From a virus: 21,628 nt of DNA. The DNA is taken from IMG/VR virus record IMGVR_UViG_3300009180_000253, positions 1 through 21,628 of that record, one strand, 5' to 3'. How positions within the stretch are numbered: position 1 is the stretch's first letter; each line of letters starts with the position of its first letter. Under the pieces are notes generated by a model, which saw nothing but the letters and a program-made list of their open reading frames with translations, had not been told where the DNA came from and did no database searches. Shown one piece after another: positions 667-14,707 of the stretch. A program made the translations under genes and the position numbers.

Positions 667-996
667 TTAGATACCAGCACCAGGAGTTACATAAATAACT
701 GAAGTACCACTAGCAGTAATGCCAGTAAAGTAAGAATTAAGGCCAAAAGCAAAAACTTCAATTGCTCCTGGCAACATTGGTAAACAATTAGCTGAGGCAG
801 TCAGTACAGAAGCATTAGCAGCTGCTTCAGTGGCATTTCTGCCAATACCTAAAAAAACTACGACTGTGCCGGAGTTACAAATTCGATAGTTACCAGATAA
901 GCTAGTTCCTTCATAGTTACTTGCTTGCACTGCTGTCGGTGCTGATGTGGCTGCGGTAAATGCTACTGATTTACCTGATTGTGCGAATGGGTTCAT
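667..996 (-). CDS. Small beta-rich phage protein, probable virion component
   Basis: A 109-residue protein rich in Ala, Ser, Thr, Gly and Val with alternating hydrophobic residues and no membrane segment or signal peptide. It starts MNPFAQSGKSVAFTAATSAP and has the stretch YRICNSGTVVVFLGIG near residues 37-52 and a C-terminal GTSVIYVTPGAGI. I recall similar short proteins in many phage genomes, where they lie near tail genes and are called hypothetical or structural; a beta-sandwich fold is my inference from the composition. The start is supported by AAGGA about 13 bases upstream and by a one-base gap to the previous stop. It resembles, in size and composition only, the protein at 20162-20557. 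Role could be decoration, fibre tip or chaperone; I cannot decide. Confidence 0.65.
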   Translation of the reverse strand: MNPFAQSGKSVAFTAATSAPTAVQASNYEGTSLSGNYRICNSGTVVVFLGIGRNATEAAANASVLTASANCLPMLPGAIEVFAFGLNSYFTGITASGTSVIYVTPGAGI

Positions 997-1360: not shown

Positions 1361-2806
1361 TTAACCTACTTTCCAATTTGTACCATCTGAATAAACTGGA
1401 ACTGCAACAGCACCTCCAGTAGCTACTGTTGCACCAAAGGTAGGTGCTAAAGCATCTGTTACAAAAGCTCTTGCTCCAACACCACTTGTTGATGCTGATG
1501 GTAATGTTGCAACAGTATAGTTTGTTGATTTGGTAACACCATACGTTTGAGTTAATGTTGTACTTGTATTACCAATAACTGTATTATTTGAACCAAGGCC
1601 TACAGCGGTATATCCAATAACCATTTCATTGGTATTTGCTACTCCTGATCCTACTGTTTGATAACCAATGTATGTATTATTTGAACCAGTAGTATTTGCA
1701 TTTGCTGAAGCATTTCCATAACCAGCATTTGATCCAATTGCAACGTTATTGCTTCCAGTAGTTAAATAAAGTGCAGTAAATCCTACAGCGGTATTACCAC
1801 TTGATGTAGAAACTGCTTGTAATGAATTTCTTCCAATGGCCGTATTCGAGCTGCCACTCGTGTTTGCTCCAAGACAATTCACTCCCATAGCCGTATTCGA
1901 ACTACCAGTATTATTAGATCCCAAAGCACTAGCACCTAATGCCGCAGAATATTGGCCAGTAGTGTTATTGTAAAGAGCTTGATAACCAACAGCAGTAATC
2001 GCAGAGTTAGCAGTATTAAAATAACCAGCTTGATAGCCTACTAAAGTGATATTACCATTAACTAAATTTGAATAACCGGCTTGATATCCTACTAAAGTAT
2101 TGTTTCCACCAGTTGTATTTTTATTACCAGCTTGGTAGCCTACTGCTACTATATTTGCACCAGAAGTGTTTGAAGCTAATGCACTTACACCATTTGCTGT
2201 ATTGGTTGCTATTGATCCAGCTCCTTTGCCAATGGTTAAACCTGATATCGAAGCATCGTTAGTGGCACTAAATGCTCCAGCAGCACTAAATGCACCTACC
2301 AAAACACTATTTGTATAAAAACTTAAAGCATTACTATTTAATGTACCAATAGCTAAAGGCATTGTTACAGACTGTAAATAGACTGTGCTGGCAGTATTAA
2401 TAATGTTTTGCCCTGGTGTATTGTATCCAGAGCTAGTAACTCCAAAATCACCATAATAAGTGGATGCAGTACCAACATCATTACTAACAATAAAATCAAC
2501 GGATGCTGCTGCACCGGCATTAGTATTTTGAACTATTTTCTGTGTATAAGCATTAGCAGAAGATGTGTAAGAACTATAAATATTAATGTCTGAATAGCCT
2601 AGTGTTCCAAAAGCATAAGAACCTTGATTAGCAGAAGAAGTAATATCTTTAGTAGCGACATAGCTTAACGCACTTGTAGCTCGACCAGCAGTTAAGTTTG
2701 CAACAGTAACTTGTTTAGTTGTTGCACTTTGAACAATTGGCAATAATTCTGTGCCAACTAAAGGGGTTGTTGATGCTGGTAAACCACTAATTTTTACATC
2801 AGCCAT
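1361..2806 (-). CDS. Tail fibre with YadA-like head repeats and shared C-terminal module
   Basis: A 481-residue extended fibre. Residues 1-42 (MADVKISGLPASTTPLVGTE and following, with TKQVTVANL) look like the short anchoring region found at the N-terminus of many phage fibre proteins. Residues about 43-200 are Ser/Ala/Asn-rich beta-type sequence without a family I can name. Residues about 204-412 hold roughly ten imperfect repeats of the YadA/trimeric-autotransporter head type (for example NTLVGYQAGY, NTAIG, NNVAIGSNAGYGN), which in bacterial adhesins fold as a trimeric left-handed beta roll. Residues 430-481 form a C-terminal module also found at the end of the gp26-position protein. TAAGGAATTATTATG joins the end of the 44-residue gene to this start, so the two are coupled. 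The protein is most likely a trimeric host-binding fibre additional to the tailspike. Fine specificity cannot be read from sequence. Confidence 0.85.
   Translation of the reverse strand: MADVKISGLPASTTPLVGTELLPIVQSATTKQVTVANLTAGRATSALSYVATKDITSSANQGSYAFGTLGYSDINIYSSYTSSANAYTQKIVQNTNAGAAASVDFIVSNDVGTASTYYGDFGVTSSGYNTPGQNIINTASTVYLQSVTMPLAIGTLNSNALSFYTNSVLVGAFSAAGAFSATNDASISGLTIGKGAGSIATNTANGVSALASNTSGANIVAVGYQAGNKNTTGGNNTLVGYQAGYSNLVNGNITLVGYQAGYFNTANSAITAVGYQALYNNTTGQYSAALGASALGSNNTGSSNTAMGVNCLGANTSGSSNTAIGRNSLQAVSTSSGNTAVGFTALYLTTGSNNVAIGSNAGYGNASANANTTGSNNTYIGYQTVGSGVANTNEMVIGYTAVGLGSNNTVIGNTSTTLTQTYGVTKSTNYTVATLPSASTSGVGARAFVTDALAPTFGATVATGGAVAVPVYSDGTNWKVG
1364..1519 (-). other. C-terminal module shared with the gp26-position protein (copy 1)
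   Basis: Encodes residues 430-481 of the fibre: TVATLP, then G-x-R-x-[FY]-VTDALAPTF, a GG-A stretch and a final GTNW-x-x-G. The same ordered motifs end the protein at 10395-11111. Codons differ throughout, so this is not a recent duplication. It may be a trimerisation or tip domain; I infer this only from its position at the end of two fibre-like proteins. Confidence 0.75.
1571..2197 (-). repeat. YadA-type head repeats within fibre gene
   Basis: The translated product contains about ten imperfect repeats of roughly 14-23 residues with the core pattern N-T-x-x-[VIM]-G-x-x-[AS]-[GL]. Examples are VGYQAGNKN, VGYQAGYSN, VGYQAGYFN, VGYQALYNN, MGVNCLGAN, IGRNSLQ and IGSNAGYGN. At DNA level the three GYQAG(Y) units are the closest copies. 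Such repeats make a trimeric beta roll in YadA-like adhesins. Confidence 0.8.
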
Positions 2807-2815
2807 AATAATTCC

Positions 2816-2950
2816 TTAAACTAAAATAAATGAACCATCTTCTTGAACTAAATTATCACTAGATTCAGTAATTAATTTATCATTAACTGGTATGTTTCCA
2901 GTATTCACTGGAGGACTTCTAAAATTGTGCCAGCCATTATTTCTTAACAT
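2816..2950 (-). CDS. 44-residue protein, first gene of the fibre transcription unit
   Basis: A small open frame with ATG at 2950 and TAA at 2816-2818, coding MLRNNGWHNFRSPPVNTGNI, then PVNDKLITESSDNLVQEDGSFILV. Three things support it as a real gene: a strong Shine-Dalgarno (AAAGGA, eight bases from the ATG), a near-consensus promoter ending 41 bases before it, and a stop codon that forms part of the Shine-Dalgarno region of the fibre gene (TAAGGAATTATTATG). The C-terminal pattern 'LITE...LVQEDGSFIL' resembles the 'EDG-x-hydrophobic' endings I recall in tiny phage proteins near fibre genes. No membrane segment or signal peptide. Function unknown; possibilities are a fibre-assembly helper, an adaptor joining the fibre to the tail, or a leader gene that mainly sets fibre translation. 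Confidence 0.65.
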   Translation of the reverse strand: MLRNNGWHNFRSPPVNTGNIPVNDKLITESSDNLVQEDGSFILV

Positions 2951-2990
2951 AATTAATCCTTTAAGATTTCAATAAACACAATTACCATAA

Positions 2991-3019
2991 AATATATTCT
3001 TTAACCTATGACTTGTCAA
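2991..3019 (-). promoter_or_regulatory. Sigma70-type promoter for the 44-residue gene and fibre
   Basis: On the minus strand, TTGACA (3014-3019, perfect -35) is followed by exactly 17 bases and TATATT (2991-2996, five of six to TATAAT). The expected start of transcription is near 2984, giving a leader of about 34 bases that carries AAAGGA before the ATG at 2950. It starts just two bases downstream of the tailspike stop codon. This is the best promoter match I found in the window. Confidence 0.75.
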
Positions 3020-3020
3020 T

Positions 3021-5255
3021 TTATACTGCTGATCCAGTCAATGAGTAAATATTTGAATCATAAAGCCTTACACCAGCAGCACTAGAAGTTGTTGCTTGAC
3101 TTAAAGTAAAGGTTGAACCAACAATATTAGTAATATAAGTGCCAGGAACAATTCCAGAACCTAAAATTTTATTACCAATAGCCCAAGCACTTGGATTAGA
3201 TACGCTAGTAATGCTAGTGCTTGTATTTGTTGTGCCAGTAGTTGCAGAGTGATATCTAGGCCACCATTGGGTATTTAAACTATATGTGCCTGATGCAACA
3301 CTTTGAGGAACACCGCTAATTGTTATTGCATTACCAACAACACTTGAAACACTTCCTAAACAAAGATTAGGAACAGAAAGTGTGCCAACTCCATTTTGAA
3401 CTGTTGTGCTAGTTGTTGTATAAATTAAATCGCCAGTATTGATTAAGTTACCATTAGGTGCAGTAAATGTTGCAGTACCATTAGAAGCAACAGTAATAGC
3501 AATACTTCCTAAACTAACTTGATAATTGCCATCTCCACCACCAGATATATATTTAGTTCCAGTAGTGTCATTATTAAAGTTAATTTCTGAACTTATTGGC
3601 ATAACTGCTTTATCTAAATATTGGCTAGAAATTGCATAAATTTTTTGTGATAAAGGTTGACTTGAATCAACATTAGTTCTTGATCCTATATCGTCAAAAT
3701 GAGAATTTCTGAAATAAACTTCAGTCATCACAAAGCTAGTATTTCCTGTTTTAGATGCACCTAATTTAAATTCGTTATAAAGACTTTCACCAAAATCACA
3801 ATTATCAAAAATAATGTCACAATAAGTTTGTGAAGCAAATCTATATGGAGAATTAAACCCAGTTGCTCCAGCAAAAAATGAACAATTATCAAATTTAACG
3901 TTGGTATATGCTAATAAATGTAAATCAGCATAAATACCACTGTATTTCCAAAAAGAAAAATCGCAATTTACAAAATTTACTGGTGCACGAGCGGACACTT
4001 GGCTTACGCCACAGAAACCAATGGAAGCAAATGCTTCTGCATGAACTCCTTGTATAAAGTTACTTTGACCATATCTACCATTAATATTAAATAAATATTT
4101 ACCAGACATATTGCACCCATAAATATAAGGTGCAAATCCTGTTTGTGAGCCATAAGTATTGCCATCAAATCCATACAAAGAAATAGCATTAGTACCACCA
4201 AACCACCAAATATTTCTTGATTGAGTTTGACCTATTGAAAATCCTACTTTGTTTTGAATAATAAAATTGTTAGAAAAAGACATTTCAGAAGCATTTGTAG
4301 TAATCCCGTTTGGAGATAAACAAATACCTACAACAAAGCCATTAACAACTAAACCATTAAATTCACATGATGATGTTTCAGCAGCCGAAGCAACATAATA
4401 AGATGATAAGCCTGGATACCCACCATCTGATGGAACAGATGTACCAAATGGATCAACTACAATACCTGCATAAGGAGAATATCTTGAATCCCTACATCCA
4501 GCAGTAACATAGGTACTATTTGTCATTAAATCTGAAGTGCCTGGATTTAAATTAGGACTAAATATGTTTTTACCTAATACATAAATATTAGATATTTTTA
4601 CTCCACGACCATTTTGAATACCAATAGCAAAAGTATTGTTAAATGTTGGCACAATTTGAGCCATTTTTGTTAAGGCAGTATTGGCTTCAAAACCAAACTT
4701 TTCACCTTCAATTTCAATACTTGAATAAGACCAAAATGTACCTGACCAAGAACCAACAATTAAAGGGGATGAAATTTTATATGTACCAACATTAACAAAT
4801 AATTTTCTTTGATTTGCTATGCAATAATTAATTGCATTTTGTAATGCAGTTGTATCATCAGTAGTTCCATCACCAGTAGCTCCAAAATCTTTTACTGAAA
4901 TATATTGAGATAATTTTGCTGTCACTGTTTCTGGTACAGAATTAGTAAAAGGTGGGGTATAAATAACATTTGAGGCATCATTACTAATCAAACTGAGAGT
5001 AGGTTGATCCCAAATAAGGTTGCCATTGACATCAGTAACAATCTGTCTATAACTTCCTACACCATAAGCAATACACTCTCCAGCACTGTCTAAAATGATT
5101 GGATTTGTATTTAAAATGCTTAAAGCAGCATTTTGATAAGTATTCTTAAAAGTTGTGGTTGATGGAATATAGTAGTAAACAAATCCACCAGCCAAAGGAT
5201 TACCATTGGCATCTAAGAATTGTTGCTTTGCGTTTGGAATTAGTGAGCCACTCAT
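3021..5255 (-). CDS. Tailspike with pectate-lyase-type beta-helix
   Basis: A 744-residue protein in the P22 gene 9 position. Residues about 1-90 form a head-binding-type domain (QQFLDANGNPLAGGFVYYYI, then NTNPIILDSAGE and YRQIVTDVNGNLIWD), the usual adaptor that fixes phage spikes to the tail. At residues 119-145 comes the pectate_lyase_3 signature ISVKDFGATGDGTTDDTTAL, starting a right-handed beta-helix that continues to about 560 with many aromatic and Asn-rich turns. The C-terminal part (about 590-744) has beta-rich segments, including a 'GSGIVPGTYITNI...FTLSQATT' unit of a type common in phage spikes. Such proteins are trimers that bind and often cleave surface polysaccharide; catalytic residues cannot be assigned by eye. 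ATGA overlap with the gp16-like gene shows it is translated from the late transcript. Confidence 0.88.
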   Translation of the reverse strand: MSGSLIPNAKQQFLDANGNPLAGGFVYYYIPSTTTFKNTYQNAALSILNTNPIILDSAGECIAYGVGSYRQIVTDVNGNLIWDQPTLSLISNDASNVIYTPPFTNSVPETVTAKLSQYISVKDFGATGDGTTDDTTALQNAINYCIANQRKLFVNVGTYKISSPLIVGSWSGTFWSYSSIEIEGEKFGFEANTALTKMAQIVPTFNNTFAIGIQNGRGVKISNIYVLGKNIFSPNLNPGTSDLMTNSTYVTAGCRDSRYSPYAGIVVDPFGTSVPSDGGYPGLSSYYVASAAETSSCEFNGLVVNGFVVGICLSPNGITTNASEMSFSNNFIIQNKVGFSIGQTQSRNIWWFGGTNAISLYGFDGNTYGSQTGFAPYIYGCNMSGKYLFNINGRYGQSNFIQGVHAEAFASIGFCGVSQVSARAPVNFVNCDFSFWKYSGIYADLHLLAYTNVKFDNCSFFAGATGFNSPYRFASQTYCDIIFDNCDFGESLYNEFKLGASKTGNTSFVMTEVYFRNSHFDDIGSRTNVDSSQPLSQKIYAISSQYLDKAVMPISSEINFNNDTTGTKYISGGGDGNYQVSLGSIAITVASNGTATFTAPNGNLINTGDLIYTTTSTTVQNGVGTLSVPNLCLGSVSSVVGNAITISGVPQSVASGTYSLNTQWWPRYHSATTGTTNTSTSITSVSNPSAWAIGNKILGSGIVPGTYITNIVGSTFTLSQATTSSAAGVRLYDSNIYSLTGSAV

Positions 5256-10006: not shown

Positions 10007-10398
10007 TATCTACTCCCCATCATGACCATTGCATGAAATTTGTTATCTCTGATATAGGCTTTCTTGATTCTACCTTCTTCAATAAACCCACACGCTTTAC
10101 TCAATTTTAATGCACTTTTGTTCCAATCGCCAATAGGAGCAATGAACTTGCAAGCTCCACGCTTTCTCATTTCTTTTATGCAATGCTCAACAAACTTTTG
10201 CGTTTCTTTACACTTCAACAGACAAACATGAATTTCATAAGTTGATGGAGTTACCATTCTAAACATTACAAACCCACATTGATGGACAAAATAATCAGCA
10301 GTATCAGAATAAGTAAACTGTTTCTTTTCTACTCCATCGACTCGAACCGAGTTCCATACTCGATCATTTTGCATAATCGATTCAATAAACTCTTTCAC
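10006..10398 (-). CDS. P22 gp14-position GNAT-fold protein (DUF2824-like)
   Basis: A 130-residue protein. I place the start at the GTG at 10398, which forms a GTGA overlap with the stop of the upstream gene; a TTG at 10410 would add four residues. The C-terminal half has the GNAT acetyltransferase layout, most clearly DWNKSALKLSKACGFIEEGR followed by KKAYIRDNKFHAMVMMG, the part that forms the last helix and strands of the fold. The acetyl-CoA loop R/Q-x-x-G-x-G/A is not evident; the corresponding segment reads KFVEHCIKEMRKRGACKF. It lies exactly where P22 has gene 14, whose family (DUF2824) I believe is GNAT-like. It may be a degenerate enzyme used in assembly or one that modifies a virion protein. 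It is oddly Cys-rich (six Cys) for this genome. Confidence 0.75.
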   Translation of the reverse strand: MKEFIESIMQNDRVWNSVRVDGVEKKQFTYSDTADYFVHQCGFVMFRMVTPSTYEIHVCLLKCKETQKFVEHCIKEMRKRGACKFIAPIGDWNKSALKLSKACGFIEEGRIKKAYIRDNKFHAMVMMGSR

Positions 10399-11111
10399 GC
10401 AGCCACCCAAGCAGTTCCGTTATAAAATGCTGGTGATTTAATTGCTCCACCACCGACCAATACCCCTAAGAATGTAGGAGCTAAAGCATCAGTAACATAG
10501 GTTCGCATTCCAATCGTTCCAGCTGGCAATGTAGCTACTGTAAAGCCAGTGCCAATAATCGGCTCTTTAATAGTTGGCTTATTGTCTAAAACAACATTTG
10601 TTCCTGTGCCTGTGACTGAATATGATGTACCCCAAGCAGATCCAGTTGAATTTGGAATGCCAGCACTCGGATAAACCATTGGTAAACTATTACTTAGTGA
10701 ACCGGCAGAAAAGTTTAATCCTGTACCAATCGTTACATTGCTAAAACCACCAGCACCATTACCATATAAAACACTTCCGCCACTTGTAGGTGGTGCATAG
10801 TCAAATCCAGATATTGCTGCGGATAGTGCAGTACCATTCCCTTTTACTAAGCCTGTAACTGTGGTTTTAAGGGTTATAGTGGCTTCATTATTTACTACAG
10901 TTACTGTTCCGGCAAATCCATTAACAGTTGCAACAATTAAATTAATTAATGCCAAGGCTTGAACTTGCGTTAATGTTAAAGCTGGTGTTTCATCAGCACC
11001 TGTTCTTTGATAAAGCTGAACCAAAAACATTAACCAAGGAACAGTTAAATTCTTATTATCATCCACCAATGGAACATTGAGGACTGGAAGATTAGTGGAT
11101 AGGTTTGCCAT
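10395..11111 (-). CDS. P22 gp26-position tail protein (needle/fibre-like)
   Basis: A 238-residue protein between the gp10-like and gp14-like genes, where P22 has the tail needle gp26 (about the same length). The N-terminus LPVLNVPLVDDNKNLTVPWL followed by MFLVQLYQRTG is a short anchor motif I recognise at the start of many phage tail proteins. A short helix follows (TQVQALALINLIVATV). The rest is beta-rich fibre-like sequence (VTGLVKGNGTALSAAISGFD, SGGSVLYGNGAGGFSNVTIG) and lacks the long heptad coiled coil of P22 gp26. The final 49 residues match the C-terminal module of the fibre at 1361-2806. It may plug the tail like gp26 but with a beta-fibre shaft and a tip domain. TAATG overlap with the gp10-like gene. 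Confidence 0.65.
   Translation of the reverse strand: MANLSTNLPVLNVPLVDDNKNLTVPWLMFLVQLYQRTGADETPALTLTQVQALALINLIVATVNGFAGTVTVVNNEATITLKTTVTGLVKGNGTALSAAISGFDYAPPTSGGSVLYGNGAGGFSNVTIGTGLNFSAGSLSNSLPMVYPSAGIPNSTGSAWGTSYSVTGTGTNVVLDNKPTIKEPIIGTGFTVATLPAGTIGMRTYVTDALAPTFLGVLVGGGAIKSPAFYNGTAWVAA
10398..10544 (-). other. C-terminal module shared with the YadA-like fibre (copy 2)
   Basis: Encodes residues 190-238: FTVATLP, G-M-R-T-Y-VTDALAPTF, a VGGGA stretch, then NGTAW at the very end. It aligns in order with residues 430-481 of the fibre, including an identical VTDALAPTF block. See the separate finding for interpretation. Confidence 0.75.
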
Positions 11112-14544: not shown

Positions 14545-14661
14545 GAATAAATCTCCATAAATTAAGGAAAAAAATAATAAAAAATACTTACTTTTCGCTT
14601 GGCTAGAGGAAATTATTCACGCCTATTACAATGATTCTACGGCTCATTTTGGCCTGAATTT
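14545..14661 (-). promoter_or_regulatory. Leader of coat mRNA
   Basis: About 110 bases between the predicted transcription start (near 14655) and the coat ATG. It contains a short possible hairpin (AATGA...TCATT), a 14-codon frame at 14603-14647 without a clear ribosome site, an unusual U-rich run (TTTTTTATTATTTTTTT on the minus strand, about 14564-14580) and then TGGAG before the ATG. Every other structural gene here has a leader of near zero length. Confidence 0.5.
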
Positions 14662-14690
14662 ATTGTACCCTTTATTTTTTAAATTATCAA
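14662..14690 (-). promoter_or_regulatory. Sigma70-type promoter for the coat gene
   Basis: On the minus strand TTGATA (14685-14690, five of six to TTGACA) lies exactly 17 bases from TACAAT (14662-14667, five of six to TATAAT). The spacer is AT-rich. The predicted start is near 14655. It is in the 163-base non-coding gap between scaffold and coat, the longest gap in the window. Confidence 0.7.
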
Positions 14691-14707
14691 CAATAAGGGG
14701 TAATAGA

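Follow-up and report, generated by a model that had tools for sequence, protein, structure and literature searches.

A chimeric 44-codon gene as the likely joint of a receptor-binding module exchange beside a P22-type tailspike

The question raised by this locus is where the fibre unit that follows the tailspike gene begins, and how it came to be joined to the structural genes before it. The window, i.e. the whole stretch of DNA that was analysed (21,628 bases; 37% GC), is a single viral metagenome record, and its minus strand carries what can be read as the structural gene block of a short-tailed phage. The terminase and portal genes were assigned by eye from their translations, the P22-type coat protein was identified by a match to PF11651, and the head-tail adaptor and head-closure protein matched phrog_637 and phrog_578, respectively, in the PHROG database. 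The head-closure protein is followed by the tailspike, a 44-codon mini-gene (ORF44), a fibre, a DUF7936 protein and several small genes (Table 1).

Table 1. Features of the tailspike-fibre region of the window
Feature	Position	Strand	Remarks
109-aa gene	667..996	-	Conserved; bounds the variable block on the right, with 89-94% identity in L061, L133 and L134
DUF7936 gene, 119 aa	998..1357	-	3 nt downstream of the fibre; fibre-DUF7936 order also in L061
YadA-like repeat fibre, 481 aa, with ISGLP head	1361..2806	-	Head common to donor-like phages
TAAGGA	2813..2818	-	ORF44 stop codon overlapping the fibre Shine-Dalgarno; kept across the mini-protein family
ORF44, 44-codon mini-gene, chimeric by comparison	2816..2950	-	ORF call and homologue comparison
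C-box LITESSDNLVQEDGSFILV of the mini-protein family	2819..2875	-	Predicted beta-hairpin
Putative recombination joint	2880..2911	-	Own-group match stops, donor-like (L220) match starts
Fixed 13-residue start MLRNNGWHNFRSP	2912..2950	-	Common at the DNA level to L061, L133 and L134
Spike-ORF44 gap, 70 nt	2951..3020	-	A+T-rich (21% GC); relatives resembled in the last ~12 nt (ribosome-binding site) only
Sigma-70-like promoter match TTGACA-17-TATATT	2991..3019	-	11/12; first base 1 nt past the spike stop
Tailspike, 744 aa, first receptor-binding protein	3021..5255	-	Anchor (4998-5255) conserved, remainder variable

The N-terminus of the tailspike was recognized by profile as a P22/Pam1-type head-binding domain (7eeq; E 7e-10), and its predicted fold (mean pLDDT 79) matches those of the cyanophages Pan3 (9vyg) and Pam1 (7eeq), followed by that of P22 (2vky, 1lkt). 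Residues 1-86 are conserved and represent the virion anchor of the first receptor-binding protein, while the match to a pectate-lyase domain starts at residues ~108-118, about 20-30 residues past this anchor. Relatives were collected as 51 loci by means of the head-tail adaptor, the best 80 matches to the spike anchor and the best 80 matches to the fibre. Among those examined, the gene directly past the spike may be an ISGLP/ISAL-type fibre, separated by a gap of ~0-10 nt without a small ORF (e.g. L032 and L144-L149), an MTISRNLSF-type gene (L136 and L141) or an unrelated small gene. The content of the junction thus differs among relatives and is not conserved together with the spike in all of them, and the view of the preliminary description that the fibre is an exchangeable module adjoining a P22-type tailspike holds, with relatives carrying other fibres, a fibre right after the spike, or none. 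The relatives show replacement of the whole block from the C-terminal part of the spike to the 109-aa gene, as opposed to a clean insertion. The fibre itself matches virion structural and tail-spike PHROGs. Its C-terminal module has matches of 73-94% in dozens of lake-phage contigs, and its C-terminal end (1361-1525) resembles by eye that of a 238-aa protein (10395-11111; similar end at 10395-10530, minus strand) in the pattern VTDALAPTF...GGA...P...GT.W.

The same description had reported a promoter-like site immediately after the tailspike stop codon and a 44-residue gene with its own ribosome site and coupling to the fibre, and both were recovered: on the minus strand, the spike stop codon TAA (3023-3021) is followed by TTGACA (3019-3014), a 17-nt spacer and TATATT (2996-2991). 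This is the sole site of at least 11/12 on the minus strand of the window, where 0.58 such sites are expected from dinucleotide shuffles. In Markov sequences of gap composition, the probability of a match of at least 11/12 is 0.002 for the gap between the spike and ORF44 and ~0.014 when all gaps of the window are considered, five of which are at least 29 nt in length. The match is therefore unusual, but not overwhelming. Over the 8 kb scanned, promoter-like sites show no enrichment, with 25 found against 32 expected. A second 11/12 site (TTGACA-16-TATAAC; 5026-5053, plus strand) is located antisense inside the spike gene and is probably a chance occurrence.

Contig L061 alone among the relatives carries the same mini-gene and fibre as the window, but the best promoter match in its 41-nt gap reaches 9/12. 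Among the 44 other mini-genes with enough upstream sequence, none is preceded by a promoter match of at least 10/12, and a counterpart is also missing in L133 and L134, where the corresponding gaps measure 0 and 16 nt. The gap sequences of the window and L061 are not homologous, and absence of the site in L061 is as such no disproof of its activity in the phage of the window. By contrast, most closer relatives keep a TTGANN-17-TANAAT-like site in their coat leader, which shows that a likely promoter can be recognized as conserved in this group and indicates that internal promoters probably exist in it. In the window, the coat-leader site (TTGATA-17-TACAAT; 14662-14690, minus strand) is located inside an inverted repeat, ACCCCTTATT...AATAAAGGGT, the arms of which change together in relatives, and is possibly a regulated coat promoter. 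The same leader (14545-14707) also contains a conserved RNA element (14585-14655, minus strand) upstream of the coat gene, with the pattern AGGYC..AATGA..RCCG..TCATT..GGCGT..AGCC..CGAAAAGT. Covariation supports a pseudoknot formed by the helices GGY/RCC and AATGA/TCATT, with 7 pairs in which both sides have changed (16 cells; 0/500 shuffles), a third helix is less certain, and the leader has no match in Rfam up to E=1.

A real promoter before ORF44, providing extra or independent transcription of the mini-gene, fibre and downstream genes within the late operon, is a reasonable possibility that nevertheless falls short of being probable: the near-complete match with optimal spacing in one of so few gaps, and the conserved promoter of the coat leader, speak for it, while its absence from L061 and from upstream of the other mini-genes and the lack of regional enrichment speak against it. 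Such a promoter would be compatible with an exchange joint inside ORF44. As part of a moving unit the site was rejected, there being no counterpart in L061 or before the 44 other mini-genes, and it does not mark the start of the unit as had been proposed, since the DNA held in common with other phages starts inside ORF44 instead. If active, the site would be an addition made locally, inside the late operon.

The joint was mapped by DNA match in 30-nt bins between the window and contigs L133, L134, L220 and L061. The match to the phages of the window's own group (L133 and L134) ends at ~2910. L220, a mini-gene phage of another group with the usual N-terminal half, matches the window from ~2900 onward only, and this match is unbroken over the C-box, stop codon, Shine-Dalgarno and fibre head (82.6% over 247 nt; 73-100% in full bins). 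The L220-like stretch comprises LITESSDNLVQEDGSFILV, the stop codon, TAAGGA, and the ATG and head of the fibre, while the match to L061 extends throughout. As the own-group match ends where that to L220 begins, the exchange boundary is placed inside ORF44, near 2890-2910 and ~100 nt past the promoter-like site. In the phage group of L220, the matching end closes a mini-protein of 52-54 aa. When INPHARED was searched for distant DNA matches to the junction, only the fibre head of Dishui Lake phage DSL-LC05 was returned. Judged by these matches, ORF44 is chimeric, with a recombination breakpoint, an exchanged module and a conserved coupling geometry; the direction of transfer between the groups is one that we infer.

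ORF44 is preceded by AAAGGATTAATTATG, and the ATG of the fibre lies 9 nt beyond its stop codon. The start MLRNNG[RW][HY]NFRSP is found in four contigs, namely the window, L061, L133 and L134. In each of these it comes after the same anchor of the spike, and scanning IMG/VR at the DNA level with an exact degenerate pattern for this start gave nothing beyond these four. In L133 the 13-residue peptide forms the N-terminus of a 361-aa Gly-rich protein (PF21722), and in L134 that of a 405-aa head-spike-fibre protein (NF048003). The best family matches in these two proteins begin at residues 17 and 21, just past the peptide, and by sequence comparison both are unrelated to the fibre of the window. 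Codon identity at shared residues between the window and the other three contigs is 0.90-1.00 over the first 13 codons, which being few are indicative only, and 0.48-0.72 over the spike anchor. The chimera is present in two of the four, the window and L061, where it encodes a stand-alone protein of 42-44 aa. The middle of this protein diverges between the two, and their C-terminal halves differ by two synonymous and six nonsynonymous changes, with no strong selection evident in this pair. A chance ORF was rejected as an explanation, given the homologues in L061 and in the mini-protein family. An INPHARED search with the 44-aa ORF gave one weak match, which leads to DSL-LC05. Taken as a whole, the AF2 model of the mini-protein is poor (pLDDT 57), and the beta-hairpin predicted for the C-box (residues 33-43; pLDDT ~70) is of modest confidence.

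The family to which the end of ORF44 belongs was collected by a DNA-pattern scan for NLxQEDGxFI, which yielded 65 stretches with 48 distinct motif-bearing ORFs, all but one of them (47/48) ORFs of 42-54 aa that end in the motif. For nearly all of the 47 mini-genes, an ISGLP-type fibre or spike-head protein begins within a few nt of the stop, and 40 overlap their upstream neighbour by 4 nt. Most retain the arrangement of stop codon, Shine-Dalgarno and start codon, in which the next ATG is closely preceded by TAAGGA or by a GGAG located in the last Glu codon. A mini-gene lies directly upstream of 28/60 ISGLP-type fibres and a long ORF precedes another 28/60, although these loci are partly motif-selected and the counts do not represent frequencies. 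The mini-protein has no match in PHROGs, Pfam, NCBIfam or PDB, and no paper naming the NLxQEDGxFI motif turned up in the literature library that was searched. An annotated example is the 'hypothetical protein' WJZ48169 of DSL-LC05, a metagenome-assembled phage that its authors describe as lytic (PMC10611076). ORF44 shares the traits of the family, being a stand-alone ORF within this length range that ends in the C-box, and also its placement directly upstream of a fibre gene with the Shine-Dalgarno overlapping the stop. The usual MSWGVGLR-type N-terminal half is, however, replaced by MLRNNGWHNFRSP in the window and by a similar start in L061. Among the loci examined this Gly-rich half (MSWGVGLR...) is never fused to a fibre, which weakens any equation of it with a docking peptide.

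Only two mini-gene relatives were recovered when bacterial genomes were scanned, on beta-proteobacterial and Methylococcaceae MAG contigs (L282 and L283), which hints weakly at the hosts. L282 is a phage contig resembling DSL-LC05; it carries terminase and portal genes, and host flanks were not seen on it. In DSL-LC05-like phages, the mini-gene is preceded by a gene of ~101 aa (L067, 2411-2716; L217, 5606-5908; ...TPIPAYTPIPF...WRVSVLQVSAAGTVYAKP), which by eye looks like the 109-aa gene of the window.

The very constant stop/Shine-Dalgarno/start geometry, the frequent 4-nt overlap with the preceding gene and the replaceable N-terminal half are what would be expected if ORF44 were a translational-coupling leader only, the product of which is irrelevant and the stop-overlapping Shine-Dalgarno of which sets fibre synthesis. 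We consider this rather unlikely, as the residues of the C-box are kept across the family at a near-saturated pS of 0.78 (pN/pS of 0.29 for the C-terminal half, with pN at the C-box lowered by the collection of members through the motif itself). It is less probable still that ORF44 is a degenerating relic of an earlier fibre N-terminus that persisted after fibre replacement: the peptide does head complete fibres in L133 and L134, but the ORF is open in both the window and L061, with the family C-box and coupling intact. Finally, a moron, i.e. a self-contained lysogenic-conversion unit beside the tailspike, which the preliminary description had suggested in case the sequence is a prophage, appears very improbable, since despite the variable content adjoining the tailspike, as at the ant moron of P22-like phages (PMC2629481), the unit consists of a virion fibre module and not a host-fitness gene, the promoter is not conserved, no minus-strand terminator-like site is present between the spike and ORF44 or after the fibre, the fibre is tightly packed against the downstream genes, and there is no sign of lysogeny, an integrase (PF00589) occurring in one distant record of 13 related ones, all fragments, and in none of the nearest. 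Morons are not part of virion morphogenesis or the phage life cycle (PMC2629481, PMC7067206), from which a fibre with tail-spike and virion structural matches differs, and the absence of terminators together with the close spacing of DUF7936 likewise argues against a self-contained cassette.

The explanation we favour, with moderate confidence, is that the exchange of a receptor-binding module left its joint in ORF44: a fixed start was combined with a donor-like mini-gene end coupled to the fibre, and the putative docking peptide was split off onto the mini-protein. In this phage group, the tailspike with its P22-type anchor would be followed by a second receptor-binding module, of which the first 13 codons (MLRNNGxHNFRSP) are fixed, with replacement of all that follows as far as the conserved 109-aa gene. 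Either in a common ancestor of the window and L061 or in a source from which both drew, the fixed start may have been joined in frame to a foreign mini-gene end, comprising the last ~20 mini-gene codons, the stop-overlapping ribosome site and an ISGLP-type fibre from another phage group. The outcome would be a stand-alone protein of 42-44 aa, as against a fibre with an N-terminal docking peptide, and translation of the fibre would most likely proceed by coupling to the mini-gene. The mini-protein could then serve the fibre as a small partner, in the virion or during assembly, with an N-terminus that contacts the spike or tail and a C-terminal hairpin that contacts the fibre; this docking or adaptor role is one that we infer. 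More tentatively, and as an idea that we hold to be doubtful, the undescribed family of ~50 residues may constitute a separate tail-fibre adaptor, in which the N-terminal half fits the virion and the C-box fits the fibre, such that recombination mounts a foreign fibre and leaves the fibre gene unchanged.

Phages change hosts by fibre exchange, and a working attachment to the virion is needed each time. Here the joint can be read directly, in a tiny gene with the first 13 codons of one group and the coupling end of another. Were the mini-protein an adaptor, it would explain, in a general and testable way, the mounting of unrelated fibres, and a family of ~50 residues, present in none of the libraries searched, would gain a function.

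Several known systems share parts of this arrangement. The ant moron of P22-like phages likewise adjoins the tailspike gene, but is located 5′ of it and carries regulatory and immunity genes, whereas the unit in the window is a virion fibre (PMC2629481). The mechanism is best paralleled in Klebsiella phages and in K1-5 and G7C, where second receptor-binding proteins are held by a short conserved N-terminal peptide while the remainder is swapped, and the KP32/KP34 Klebsiella phages and the coliphages K1-5 and G7C possess, as does the window, a first receptor-binding protein with a virion anchor (PMC6872550). In the window spike, family searches found no T4gp10-like docking domain, and there is little room between the anchor and the pectate-lyase match. 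L133 and L134 fit the conserved-peptide second receptor-binding protein, with a group-specific peptide and a swapped remainder, while in the window and L061 the peptide is found on a separate protein of 42-44 aa and not on the fibre. P22/Pam1-type tailspikes share with the window a head-binding anchor, by profile and fold, which is conserved ahead of a variable remainder; the window differs in the second fibre module after the spike. To our knowledge, such a module is not part of the P22 tail. Further counterparts are the mini-proteins of lake phages such as DSL-LC05 (WJZ48169), with which ORF44 has in common the C-box (TES-x-NLVQEDG-x-FILV), a length of 42-54 aa, a Shine-Dalgarno overlapping or adjacent to the stop codon and a position before a fibre or spike-head gene. 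In place of their usual N-terminal half (MSWGVGLRxGVAVGLGSI...), the window and L061 carry the MLRNNGxxNFRSP start of their own phage group, and the overlap with the preceding gene has been lost.
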